From the NCBI GenBank assembly GCA_012512905.1, contig JAAZDF010000114.1:1-34491 (forward strand): DNA of 34,491 nucleotides. The letters are read 5' to 3'. The notes under the pieces were generated by a model. The model was not told the DNA's origin. It saw only the letters and a list, made by a program, of their open reading frames with translations, and ran no database searches. The stretch is from Clostridium sp. GTDB lineage: Bacteria; Bacillota; Clostridia; Clostridiales; Clostridiaceae. This document shows, in pieces, positions 5,422-27,248 of the stretch. Positions within the stretch are counted from its first letter, which is position 1. Each line of letters begins with the position of its first letter. Made by a program: the position numbers and the translations under genes.

Positions 5422-5507
5422 AAAAGATAAAATTAAATTTTAGGAGTAATGAAATATTATGAGGTCTAATTTTATTAAAGTAATAAATTTAAATAATTTA
5501 TTTTATT

Positions 5508-5541
5508 AATAAGTAGAGTAACTGTTGTTACTCTACTTATT
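5508..5541. repeat. Perfect 15-4-15 palindrome over the pyrH promoter
   Basis: AATAAGTAGAGTAAC, loop TGTT, and GTTACTCTACTTATT form a perfect inverted repeat. It is not followed by a T-run on the plus strand (GTGCTC), so it does not read as an intrinsic terminator. The -35 box of the pyrH promoter (TTGTTA, 5525-5530) starts in its loop and runs into its right arm. That position suits an operator for a dimeric repressor. Alternatively it is a second, U-less hairpin stopping tsf read-through. Confidence 0.6.
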
Positions 5542-5553
5542 GTGCTCTATAAT
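5525..5553 (+). promoter_or_regulatory. pyrH promoter (TTGTTA-17-TATAAT)
   Basis: The -35 TTGTTA (5525-5530) is 17 bases from the consensus -10 TATAAT (5548-5553). The predicted start near 5560 leaves a 60-base leader before pyrH. The -35 box overlaps the right half of the perfect palindrome at 5508-5541. Confidence 0.7.
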
Positions 5554-23503: not shown

Positions 23504-24445
23504 ATGATAATTGTAAATGAAAAAATTACCGATAAAAATTTTAAAGAAGGTACATATATAGCTCTTGGTAGCTTTGATGGACTTCATAAAGGTCATATGG
23601 CTTTAATAAACAAAGTAGTTGATGAATCTTTAGCTGCTGGCTATAAAAGCTGTGTGTATACTTTTAAAAATCATCCTTTGACAGTTGCAATACCAGAGAT
23701 TGCTCCAAAGCTAATCATGGATACAAAACAAAAAATTCATTTACTTGAAAGTAAAGATGTTGATATGGCAGTATTCGTATCCTTTACTGAAAGTTATATG
23801 GAGATAGAAGCAGAAGACTTTATAAAACTTTTATTAGAAGAATATAATGCAAAAGGTTTTGTAGTTGGCTTCAACTTTAAATTTGGCAACCAAAATAAAG
23901 GTGATGTCAAAATGCTCAAAAAGCTATCTGAAAAGTATGGTTTTGATGTATTTGTTATTGATCCTGAGCTTAGCAAAGATAATGTAATAAGCTCAACAAG
24001 AATAAGAAATTTAATATCCAAAGGGCATATAGAGCAAGCAAATGATCTTTTATTTGAACCTTTCATGCTAAGAGGAACTATAATAGATGGTAAAAAACTT
24101 GGCCGTAAAATAGGCTTCCCAACTGCAAATATGAGCTACAATGATAAATATGTACTTCCTAAAAGAGGAGTTTATTATACTAATATAAAAATTGGAGAAA
24201 AACTTTATAAAAGTATTTCTTCTGTTGGATATAACCCTACAGTTAGCGATGAAGAAGTAATTAGTATTGAAAGCTATATATTAGATTTTGATCAAGAAAT
24301 TTATGGTGAAACTGTAAGTCTCTATTTTTTAAAGTACATAAGAGACGAGATGAAATTTGAAAACTTAGATGATCTAGTAGATCAACTGGATAAAGATAGA
24401 AATTATGCTAGAGACAAGGAAATGTTTGATTTTATGTATGATTAG
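23504..24445 (+). CDS. ribF: Bifunctional riboflavin kinase / FMN adenylyltransferase
   Basis: RibF turns riboflavin into FMN and then FAD. The N-terminal nucleotidyltransferase domain has LGSFDGLHKGHMAL (22-35), the HIGH-like loop, and SSTRIRNLISKGHIEQANDLL. The C-terminal flavokinase has GRKIGFPTANM (200-210), where the TAN motif binds metal and ATP. The 313-residue length is normal. No FMN riboswitch is seen upstream, as expected inside this operon. It closes the superoperon; rpsO has its own promoter 41 bases later. Confidence 0.96.
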   Translation: MIIVNEKITDKNFKEGTYIALGSFDGLHKGHMALINKVVDESLAAGYKSCVYTFKNHPLTVAIPEIAPKLIMDTKQKIHLLESKDVDMAVFVSFTESYMEIEAEDFIKLLLEEYNAKGFVVGFNFKFGNQNKGDVKMLKKLSEKYGFDVFVIDPELSKDNVISSTRIRNLISKGHIEQANDLLFEPFMLRGTIIDGKKLGRKIGFPTANMSYNDKYVLPKRGVYYTNIKIGEKLYKSISSVGYNPTVSDEEVISIESYILDFDQEIYGETVSLYFLKYIRDEMKFENLDDLVDQLDKDRNYARDKEMFDFMYD

Positions 24446-24485
24446 TAACTTACTTATAATTTAGATAAGATTAAAAGGTTAGTTA

Positions 24486-24514
24486 TTGTAAATATAAAAT
24501 TGCTATGATATAAT
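24486..24514 (+). promoter_or_regulatory. rpsO promoter (TTGTAA-17-TGATATAAT)
   Basis: The -35 TTGTAA (24486-24491) and -10 TATAAT (24509-24514) are 17 bases apart, with an extended TGA just before the -10. Transcription would begin near 24521. Confidence 0.75.
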
Positions 24515-24520
24515 AATTAC

Positions 24521-24594
24521 CGAACCATGAACTAAGATTTTAGGGTTGCGACCTTTTGTCTTGGACATAGGGGATAATACGAGGAGGAAATGCA
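24521..24594 (+). promoter_or_regulatory. rpsO leader, likely S15 autoregulatory element
   Basis: The 74-base leader can fold into a long hairpin in which CTAAGAT pairs with GTCTTGG and AGGG with CCTTT, capped by TTGCGA. AGGGGATAATACGAGGAGG then runs into the start. S15 is known to repress its own mRNA through leader RNA in several phyla. The match to a Firmicute-type S15 leader is by general layout only and was not checked against a covariance model. Confidence 0.5.
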
Positions 24595-24858
24595 ATGGAT
24601 AATTTAAACAAAACAGAAATAATTGAAAAACATGCTAGACACGAGGGTGATACTGGTTCACCTGAGGTTCAGATTGCGCTTTTAACAGCGAGAATTAATC
24701 TTTTAACTGAACATTTAAAAGAACATAAAAAAGACCACCATTCAAGAAGAGGACTTCTTATGATGGTAGGACAAAGAAGAGGACTTCTTAATTACTTAAA
24801 AGCTAAAGATATTGAAAGATACAGAGATCTAATAGCTAAGCTTAAGATTAGAAGATAG
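24595..24858 (+). CDS. rpsO: 30S ribosomal protein S15
   Basis: S15 is a primary 16S rRNA binder at the three-way junction of helices 20-22 and forms bridge B4 with the 50S. The 87-residue protein has [19 protein letters not shown] and [25 protein letters not shown], both family hallmarks. GAGGAGG precedes the ATG. It has its own promoter, leader and terminator. pnp follows, as in E. coli and many Firmicutes. Confidence 0.98.
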
Positions 24859-24873
24859 TCTATATTTAAATCT

Positions 24874-24899
24874 AAGCCTGCTTTTTAAGCAGGCTTTTA
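24874..24899 (+). terminator. rpsO terminator
   Basis: AAGCCTGCTT (24874-24883) and AAGCAGGCTT (24887-24896) form a perfect stem with a TTT loop, followed by TT and then A, so the T-tract is short. Some read-through into pnp is plausible. Confidence 0.75.
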
Positions 24900-24948
24900 T
24901 AAATTATAGGTATTTAATTATCAAAAAAAGTTTTATCGATGAAGTGTT

Positions 24949-25107
24949 TAACTTAAAAACTAACTAAATGGGATAGAGAATATTTTGTCTAATATTTTTT
25001 AAAAATCAAAGTTTATATAAGTTTATATTTAAATATAAGCTACTAATTGTAAATTTTGATTTTTAAAAAATATAATTTAGATAATACTCTCTAACGTGTT
25101 TAAGTTA
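24949..25107. repeat. ~160-nt imperfect inverted repeat in front of pnp
   Basis: The two halves of this spacer are mirror images. TAACTTAAA (24949-24957) pairs with TTTAAGTTA (25099-25107). GAGAATATT (24976-24984) pairs with AATACTCTC (25083-25091) with one mismatch. TCTAA pairs with TTAGA. TATTTTTTAAAAATCAAA (24993-25010) pairs perfectly with 25055-25072, and pairing extends five more bases inward with one G-U. The tip is the palindrome TTATATTTAAATATAA (25023-25038). As RNA it would be one long hairpin ending just before the pnp ribosome binding site. It could be an RNase III target or the remains of a small palindromic mobile element. Confidence 0.75.
25047..25076 (+). promoter_or_regulatory. 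candidate pnp promoter (TTGTAA-18-TATAAT)
   Basis: TTGTAA (25047-25052) and TATAAT (25071-25076) are 18 bases apart within the right arm of the inverted repeat. Transcription would start near 25083, leaving a ~39-base leader without most of the hairpin. pnp could thus be read either from here or by read-through from rpsO. Confidence 0.5.
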
Positions 25108-25121
25108 TAAGGAGAGATAAT

Positions 25122-27248
25122 ATGAAAATAAACAAAGAAATAACTTTAGCTGGCAGAAATTTTGGAGTTGAGTTTGGTGATACAGGATTTTTATCAGACG
25201 CAGCTATATTTGTAAACTACGGTGATACAGTTATTATGGTCAATACCAACGCGTCAAATTCTCCAAGAAAGGGAATGGATTTTTTCCCGTTATCAGTAGA
25301 TTATGAAGAAAGATTATATTCTGTTGGTAAAATACCAGGAGGATTTATTAAAAGAGAAGGTAGACCTTCTGAAGACTCTATTTTGAATGGTAGAGCTGTA
25401 GATAGAACAATAAGGCCTCTATTTCCAGATGGTCTTAGAAATGATGTACAAGTTGTTTGTACTATAATGTCTGTAGAAAATGATAATGCTCCATCAATTC
25501 TTGCAATAAACGGTGCTGTAACAGCTTTACTTTTATCGTCTATACCATACGATACTCCACTCGGAGCTGTTTCTGTGGGTTTAATAGATGGTGACTTTGT
25601 TTTAAATCCTAACTCAGAGCAAAGAGAAGCTTCAGACTTAGACCTTACTGTTTGTGCTACAGAAGATAGGGTTATGATGATTGAAGCTGCTGCAAATGAA
25701 GTATCAGAGCAAGTGATGATAGATGCCATTGATTTTGGATTTAATGAATGTAAACAAATCATTGAATTTCAAAAAGAACTTGTAAAAGAGTATGGTAAGG
25801 AAAAACGTGAACTTGAATACTTTACAGTAGATGAAGATATTAGATCTATGGTATCAAATTTTATTGGAAATGATATCAAAGATGCTATGCAAATATTAGA
25901 TAAAGATGAAAGAAACGATAAAATAAATGAAATCAAAGAAAAAGTAGCTGAAGAGTTCTCAGAAGAGTATGAAGATAGTTTAAAAGAAATAAATGAAGTT
26001 GTTTATGAAGCTCAAAAAAATTCGCTTAGAGATATGGTTTTACTTGAAAACAAAAGAATAGATGGTAGAGCATTTGATGAAACAAGACATTTAGAGTCAA
26101 GTGTTTCAATACTTCCAAGAACTCATGGTTCTGGAATATTTACAAGAGGACAAACTCAAGTTTTAGGAGTTACAACTCTAGGAGCTATAAGTGAAATACA
26201 AAAACTTGATGGAATATCAGAAGAAGAAACTAAAAGATATATGCACCATTACAATTTCCCATCATATTCTGTTGGAGAAACAGGACCAATGAGAGGGCCT
26301 GGTAGAAGAGAGATAGGTCACGGTGCTTTAGCTGAAAAAGCATTACTTCCTTTAATACCTAGTGAAGAAGAGTTTCCTTATGCTATAAGAGTGGTATCAG
26401 AGATCTTATCATCAAACGGATCAACATCACAAGCTGCTGTCTGCGCTTCAACACTTGCGCTTTTAGATGCAGGTGTTCCACTAAAAAGACCTGCTGCAGG
26501 TGTAGCTATGGGACTTTTCACAAATGATGATTTATCTGTTGAAAAAGTTGTTACTGATATCCAAGGAATAGAAGATTTCTTTGGAGATATGGATTTTAAA
26601 GTAGCAGGTACAGAAAAAGGAATAACATCTATTCAGGTAGATACAAAAATAAAAGGTTTTTCAAAGACTGTAGTTGAAGAATCTATAAATGGTGCAAGAA
26701 AAGCAAGACTTCAAATGCTAGATGTTATGAAGGCTGCTATTGATGGTCCAAGAGATGAAGTATCTCTTTACGCTCCAAAAATCTATACAATTAATATAGA
26801 CCCAGATAAAATAAGAGATGTTATCGGCGCTGGTGGAAAAACAATTAATAAAATAATTGATGAAACTGGAGTTAAGATAGACATTGACGATACTGGAAAA
26901 GTTTTTGTAGCTGGTGAAGATATTAATATGGTAAATGCAGCTCTGAAAACTATTGAAGGAATAACAAAAGATGTTAAAAAAGGTGAAATTTATCTTGGAA
27001 CAGTTAAAAAGATAATGCCTTTTGGATGTTTTGTTGAAATTCTTCCTGGAAAAGATGGGCTTGTACATATATCAAAACTTGAAGAAGGAAGAGTTGAAAA
27101 TGTAGAAGATGTTGTTTCTGAAGGCGATGAGATTTTAGTGAAAGTTCTTGAGATTGATAATCAAGGCAGAATTAATTTATCTAGAAAAGATGCCACAAAA
27201 GAAGCAGACGAAGTTGGAAGAGAAAACTTAAATATTCAAAAGTTTTAA
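25122..27248 (+). CDS. pnp: Polyribonucleotide nucleotidyltransferase (PNPase)
   Basis: PNPase is a trimeric 3'-5' exoribonuclease that uses phosphate to release nucleoside diphosphates; it can also add tails. It has two RNase PH-like domains: the first at about 10-230, and the second at about 310-540, including [18 protein letters not shown] with the catalytic aspartates near 489-491. An alpha-helical linker separates them. The C-terminal KH domain ([12 protein letters not shown], about 567) and S1 domain ([15 protein letters not shown], about 626-690) follow. The 708 residues are normal. AAGGAGAG precedes the ATG, directly after the long inverted repeat. NrnA, encoded upstream, degrades its short products. 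Confidence 0.98.

Follow-up and report, generated by a model that had tools for sequence, protein, structure and literature searches.

A long conserved RNA hairpin in the pnp leader of a Clostridium sp., a probable element of PNPase feedback through RNase III

Results

A hairpin of about 60 pairs precedes pnp in the window, by which we mean the whole 34,491-nucleotide stretch of DNA analysed here, and comparison of sequences indicates with high confidence that it is selected as RNA. We consider it probable that this hairpin is a cis-acting RNA element in the 5′ untranslated part of the pnp mRNA, and that it would serve as a post-transcriptional switch for feedback on PNPase via RNase III. PNPase is among the principal enzymes of RNA degradation, and the way it controls itself in E. 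coli is a textbook case.

The hairpin (24949..25107; all features of this locus are on the + strand) lies in the 263-nt spacer between rpsO and pnp. The upstream gene, rpsO (24595..24858), codes for ribosomal protein S15 (Pfam Ribosomal_S15, 136 bits), and pnp (25122..27248) codes for a PNPase of 708 aa with two RNase PH units followed by KH and S1 domains. The first ~40 nt of the spacer are occupied by the intrinsic terminator of rpsO, a stem at 24874..24896 (AGCCTGCTT..AAGCAGGCT, then TTTTA; fold -14.4 kcal/mol, z -3.6). This terminator is separate from the hairpin, and therefore the repeat, placed correctly at 24949-25107 by the initial annotation, is not quite the entire spacer. A terminator of the same sequence type was found in the spacers of relatives from genera g58 and g60. 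A promoter-match search of 24900-24960 yielded no convincing sigma-70 site for pnp. The same genome encodes RNase III (Ribonucleas_3_3, 148 bits, in a 236-aa frame) and RNase J.

Folding of 24900-25125 gave a single unbranched hairpin of -49.7 kcal/mol (z = -5.2), and 0 of 200 shuffles were equally stable, which bears out the long inverted repeat first described in this leader. Direct pairing revealed a perfect core of 19 Watson-Crick bp (24992-25010 with 25055-25073), not 18 as first counted, and the G25011-U25054 wobble plus four further pairs extend it to 24 bp, not 23. The core arms thus span 24992..25015 (the last four pairs from 25012-25015) on the 5′ side and 25050..25073 on the 3′ side. 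With loops of up to 50, the 34-kb window contains no longer perfect inverted repeat; none of 2000 dinucleotide-shuffled spacers reached the observed 19 bp, the best perfect repeat among them being 16 bp (loop ≤50). The matching outer blocks were recovered by an inverted-repeat search, one of 41 nt at 78% (24975-25015/25050-25090) and the outermost of 12 nt at 92% (24949-24960/25096-25107). Since TAACTTAAA and TAACTAAA are near-repeats, two partners compete for the outermost block, which in the minimum-energy fold pairs with the inner of the two. The outer stem comprises 24949..24991, where pairing is kept and the sequence has diverged between genera, and 25074..25107 on the 3′ side. The apical part (25016..25049) forms a smaller stem-loop that is lineage-specific and longer here than in relatives, and its stretch 25020-25041 is close to palindromic. 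Only 1-2 bases, and not three as previously noted, separate the end of the hairpin from the AAGGAG ribosome binding site of pnp (25109..25114), which is mostly unpaired (mean pairing probability 0.35). No U tract follows the hairpin.

The nearest relatives by PNPase, four g58 genomes and one g60 genome, carry a long hairpin with the same core in this spacer. With that of the window they make six leaders from three genera, and the predicted fold of each is a single unbranched hairpin with 57-61 pairs and a z between -5.1 and -7.6. RNAalifold placed 32 pairs on the six-sequence alignment, with 95.7% of the cells paired; when partners were slid by one to three columns, pairing dropped to 37-66%. 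Both-side changes were seen in 11 cells; shuffles gave 4.8, and no slid version exceeded 6. The count is drawn from a small set (six sequences, four of them from one genus), and the shuffles keep relatedness. These compensatory changes, which it had been proposed to seek in relatives' spacers, were thus found among the closest relatives, in the outer pairs; the outermost pairs are the least conserved of the hairpin, and the 17-bp core is almost invariant. Its two segments, TTTTTTAAAAATCAAAG (24995-25011) and TTTTGATTTTTAAAAAA (25054-25070), are conserved in the window's own genus (g1), g58 and g60. In the main helix 19 of 28 pairs never vary among the six sequences; they are therefore uninformative on pairing, yet show sequence constraint. 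Since the inner 17 bp stay constant while the remainder is re-paired in changed sequence, we take the hairpin to be a real control element.

The strand under selection could also be assigned. Pair 25011/25054 is G-U in all six genomes, and on the other strand it would be C-A. A covariance model scored 79-98 bits on the pnp strand versus 39-48 on the other. The invariant G-U and the pnp-strand score, about twice that of the other strand, argue that the selected molecule is pnp-sense RNA.

The number of copies was then determined. In the window's own genome (1.88 Mb, 248 contigs) the hairpin matched substantially only itself, directly and as its reverse complement. When relatives were searched at the DNA level with the spacer as query, only short A+T-rich chance matches came back and the true homologues were missed, and so homologous hairpins were located via the spacer adjoining pnp. 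A genome-wide search with the covariance model (R1) missed at first look the window's own copy, and the exact core pattern (TTTTTTAAAAAYCAAAG, 14-44 nt, TTTTGRTTTTTAAAAAA) was used instead. Of the 227 genomes of the order, 6 have this pattern, each in a single copy and always in the rpsO-pnp spacer; these genomes span three genera of the family, the window's own and two others, and the arm spacing among the matches ranges from 17 to 42 nt. When 391 genomes sampled evenly across the class were searched, the window's own was the sole match. The reversed pattern, used as a control, gave zero matches in the same genome search. It is practically negligible that a mobile or repeated palindrome (MITE, REP-like) sits here by chance: a strong inverted repeat in intergenic space would suit such an element, but there is one genomic copy, it occupies the same place in every core-bearing genome, and the matches elsewhere are short A+T-rich stretches. 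The unlinked copies that would have marked a mobile element were sought and none was found, and a mobile repeat was discarded on copy number and position.

A known RNA family was likewise discarded, Rfam giving no match at its thresholds. With Rfam 15 at the gathering score no match was obtained in the window, a relaxed scan of 24400-25300 also left the hairpin unmatched, and a scan of 20 loci with pnp leaders recovered only one TPP riboswitch and one tRNA, both in other parts of these loci.

In a PNPase tree (quick method), the window's genome and genera g58, g60 and g11 group together in a clade (SH-aLRT 99) to which the rest of the family is sister. A long leader hairpin is missing from 32 of the 33 rows sampled in this sister clade. 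Relatives lacking the repeat, named at the outset as evidence against the proposal, are therefore indeed most of the family, but they lie outside the core-bearing clade. This distribution fits either a gain in the core-bearing clade or a loss in the rest of the family, and it follows that feedback of such a kind is not universal there, a point against the feedback model. Genus g11, of the same clade, has a pnp-leader hairpin with a different core, GTGTATCTAATTATAATTC / GAACTATAATTAAGTATGC (G010, G217). In the g11 loci L101 and L182 the core of the hairpin upstream of pnp (GTGTATCTAATTATAAT) is unrelated to that of the window.

To place this hairpin among those of other Clostridia, 131 distinct rpsO-pnp spacers were folded from after the rpsO terminator. 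In 43 of them the fold held an unbranched hairpin with 27 pairs or more and a z below -2.5; most others had none. From these results, long hairpins before pnp seem to be widespread in Clostridia and absent from most of the window's family. Many of the hairpins belong to two further sequence classes. Class A has the core TTTAGCAGTGAAAC ... GTTTTATTGCTAAA; in 13 aligned sequences (alignment A4), 10 of 17 pairs show both-side changes. It occurs in Oscillospiraceae-like Clostridia (L020, L042, L045, L048, L050, L055, L057, L062, L072, L073, L075, L081; L217-L224, L226-L237), its upper stem covaries, and it has no Rfam entry. Class B, with the core GTAGCTTGTATAAT ... ATTATAGAGGTTAC, is represented by 7 sequences (alignment A5) with both-side changes in 9 of 19 pairs. 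It occurs in a second group of Clostridia (L040, L044, L051, L063, L078, L080, L083; L243-L249), has one conserved G-G mismatch, and is also without an Rfam entry. When the 391 class genomes were searched blind, the rpsO-pnp spacer accounted for 20 of the 21 loci that the class A model matched at E up to 5e-4 (21 of 26 over all matches) and for all 7 loci that the class B model matched at E below 1e-7 (7 of 10 over all matches), the search being not fully independent in that some genomes may share species with the training loci. The main texts of three comparative RNA-discovery papers (PMC8040213, PMC11109978 and PMC7247131) make no mention of pnp.

A further pnp-leader core, GTAGTAATAATTT / AAATTATTATTAC, was observed in L033, L049 and L059, where rpsO was not found just upstream and a TATAAT-like box directly precedes the hairpin. 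In L048 a class A hairpin precedes pnp although rpsO was not found just upstream. The hairpins of these four loci precede pnp where no adjacent rpsO was found, and hence the hairpin goes with pnp. Taken together, the data suggest that: i) pnp-leader hairpins follow pnp and not rpsO, and ii) each lineage has its own nearly invariant core helix.

Discussion

A feedback model can be built on several observations: the hairpin is conserved as RNA and, within the clade, is linked to pnp alone, and the genome has genes for RNase III, RNase J and a KH/S1 PNPase. From these we infer that the region would be transcribed as part of the pnp leader and that RNase III would cleave its long double strand. 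The severed upstream arm would stay base-paired with the newly made 5′ end of the pnp mRNA and protect it. When PNPase is abundant, it would degrade the annealed arm from its free 3′ end, and the exposed single-stranded 5′ end would then be open to attack by RNase J and other decay enzymes, so that PNPase would reduce its own synthesis.

Repression of PNPase by RNase III has been reported for E. coli, S. coelicolor, S. pyogenes, B. burgdorferi and C. jejuni (PMC8708148), and pnp leaders of a similar kind are targets of RNase III in the first three of these (PMC8708148, PMC10126417, PMC6431027). As in E. coli, the hairpin of the window is long and lies between the rpsO terminator and pnp, in a genome that encodes RNase III and a KH/S1 PNPase; the E. 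coli rpsO-pnp spacer, folded by the same procedure, gave a comparable z of -5.5. The two hairpins are unrelated in sequence, however, and the core of the window, 19 bp without a mismatch, is nearly pure A-U and conserved in sequence between genera. This composition, unlike that of the E. coli hairpin, counts against the feedback model. Decay from the 5′ end in this bacterium, unlike in E. coli, would be expected to involve RNase J. In S. coelicolor the rpsO terminator is followed by a second stem-loop before pnp, which is cut by RNase III, and PNPase rises 2-4 fold in an rnc mutant (PMC10126417). The window has the same order of stems, but its core has no internal loop, whereas the S. coelicolor stem is cut at a 4/4 internal loop. 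In S. pyogenes, RNA-seq showed that RNase III cuts the pnp leader and that a 22-nt fragment is stable, from which a duplex mechanism like that of E. coli was proposed; fragments of 22 and 30 nt were predicted for the hairpin in its pnp 5′ UTR (PMC6431027). By this published description the window resembles S. pyogenes in its Firmicute host, its putative RNase III substrate upstream of pnp and its candidate duplex mechanism. The annotation of E. coli MG1655 places sraG across from the rpsO-pnp spacer, on the other strand (L216, 384-599).

The initial annotation proposed an E. coli-like control of PNPase, and the conserved hairpin together with the encoded RNase III and KH/S1 PNPase keep that proposal standing, except that it would not be the first Firmicute case, S. 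pyogenes having been published. A convergent control of the E. coli kind is plausible here and not new for Firmicutes. What is new is the hairpin family of the window and the two larger ones, with sequence-constrained cores that differ between lineages.

Two other functions were rejected. The Shine-Dalgarno (SD) sequence is mostly open, with a mean pairing probability of 0.30-0.40 in five of the six core-bearing leaders and 0.52 in the sixth, which makes simple masking of the ribosome binding site unlikely. The hairpin has no U tract and the rpsO terminator is a separate stem, and a transcription terminator was therefore dismissed. The open SD, the missing U tract and the lack of a repeat family together argue against masking, attenuation and mobile DNA.

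The hairpin could instead be a 5′ stabiliser that bars entry of RNase J or RNase Y and keeps the pnp mRNA long-lived, without feedback. Its position near the probable 5′ end of the message would suit this role, as would the presence of RNase J and the short distance at which the hairpin starts after a visible TATAAT box of pnp in L033, L049, L059 and G010. We regard this as unlikely, though worth serious attention: 60 pairs and an almost invariant inner core go far beyond the needs of a protective stem, and conservation is lowest in the outermost pairs, on which protection would chiefly depend. The core might also be a binding site through which PNPase or another RNA-binding protein represses translation or stability of pnp without RNase III. 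The core is conserved in sequence as well (19 of the 28 main-helix pairs are invariant), as expected of a protein contact, and E. coli PNPase reportedly also represses its own translation independently of RNase III (Carzaniga 2015, listed in PMC10362022). In most of the six leaders, however, the SD is largely accessible, and the KH and S1 domains of PNPase bind single strands; we think this explanation improbable. That the repeat acts at the DNA level as an operator, or holds the promoter of an antisense RNA from the other strand, is very unlikely. The sraG annotation of E. coli and a promoter-like match inside the repeat (25047-25076) could be read in its favor, but promoter-like matches are near their chance number (7 found versus 4.9 expected), an arm spacing of 17 to 42 nt is unlike an operator, and the conserved G-U pair favors pnp-sense RNA.

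RNase III-dependent feedback is the reading we retain, and one further feature counts against it. The almost invariant 17-bp core exceeds the general needs of RNase III and suggests some sequence-specific recognition beyond what the feedback model includes; it may set where RNase III cuts, or may contact PNPase or another protein. The hairpin of the window shares with classes A and B a long, covarying and pnp-dedicated stem with a short sequence-constrained core helix, and differs from them in its core sequence (theirs being TTTAGCAGTGAAAC/GTTTTATTGCTAAA and GTAGCTTGTATAAT/ATTATAGAGGTTAC, respectively). It is a reasonable possibility, which we advance tentatively, that Clostridia have several pnp-dedicated hairpin families (at least A, B and the present one, here C, and probably more), with place and architecture in common and sequence not, whose short cores are read by a lineage-specific partner (RNase III, PNPase or another protein), control of PNPase being kept while the recognition code is repeatedly replaced. 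If the cores mark recognition by RNase III or PNPase, they would offer natural experiments on how a dsRNA-cutting enzyme chooses its sites outside model species. The pnp-leader hairpins are also undescribed RNA families to be annotated.

Another hairpin was observed elsewhere in the window, between tsf and pyrH (5507-5542). It is a perfect 16-bp hairpin, AATAAGTAGAGTAAC/GTTACTCTACTTATT (z -6.5), without a U tract, and could be either an unusual terminator or another processing site.
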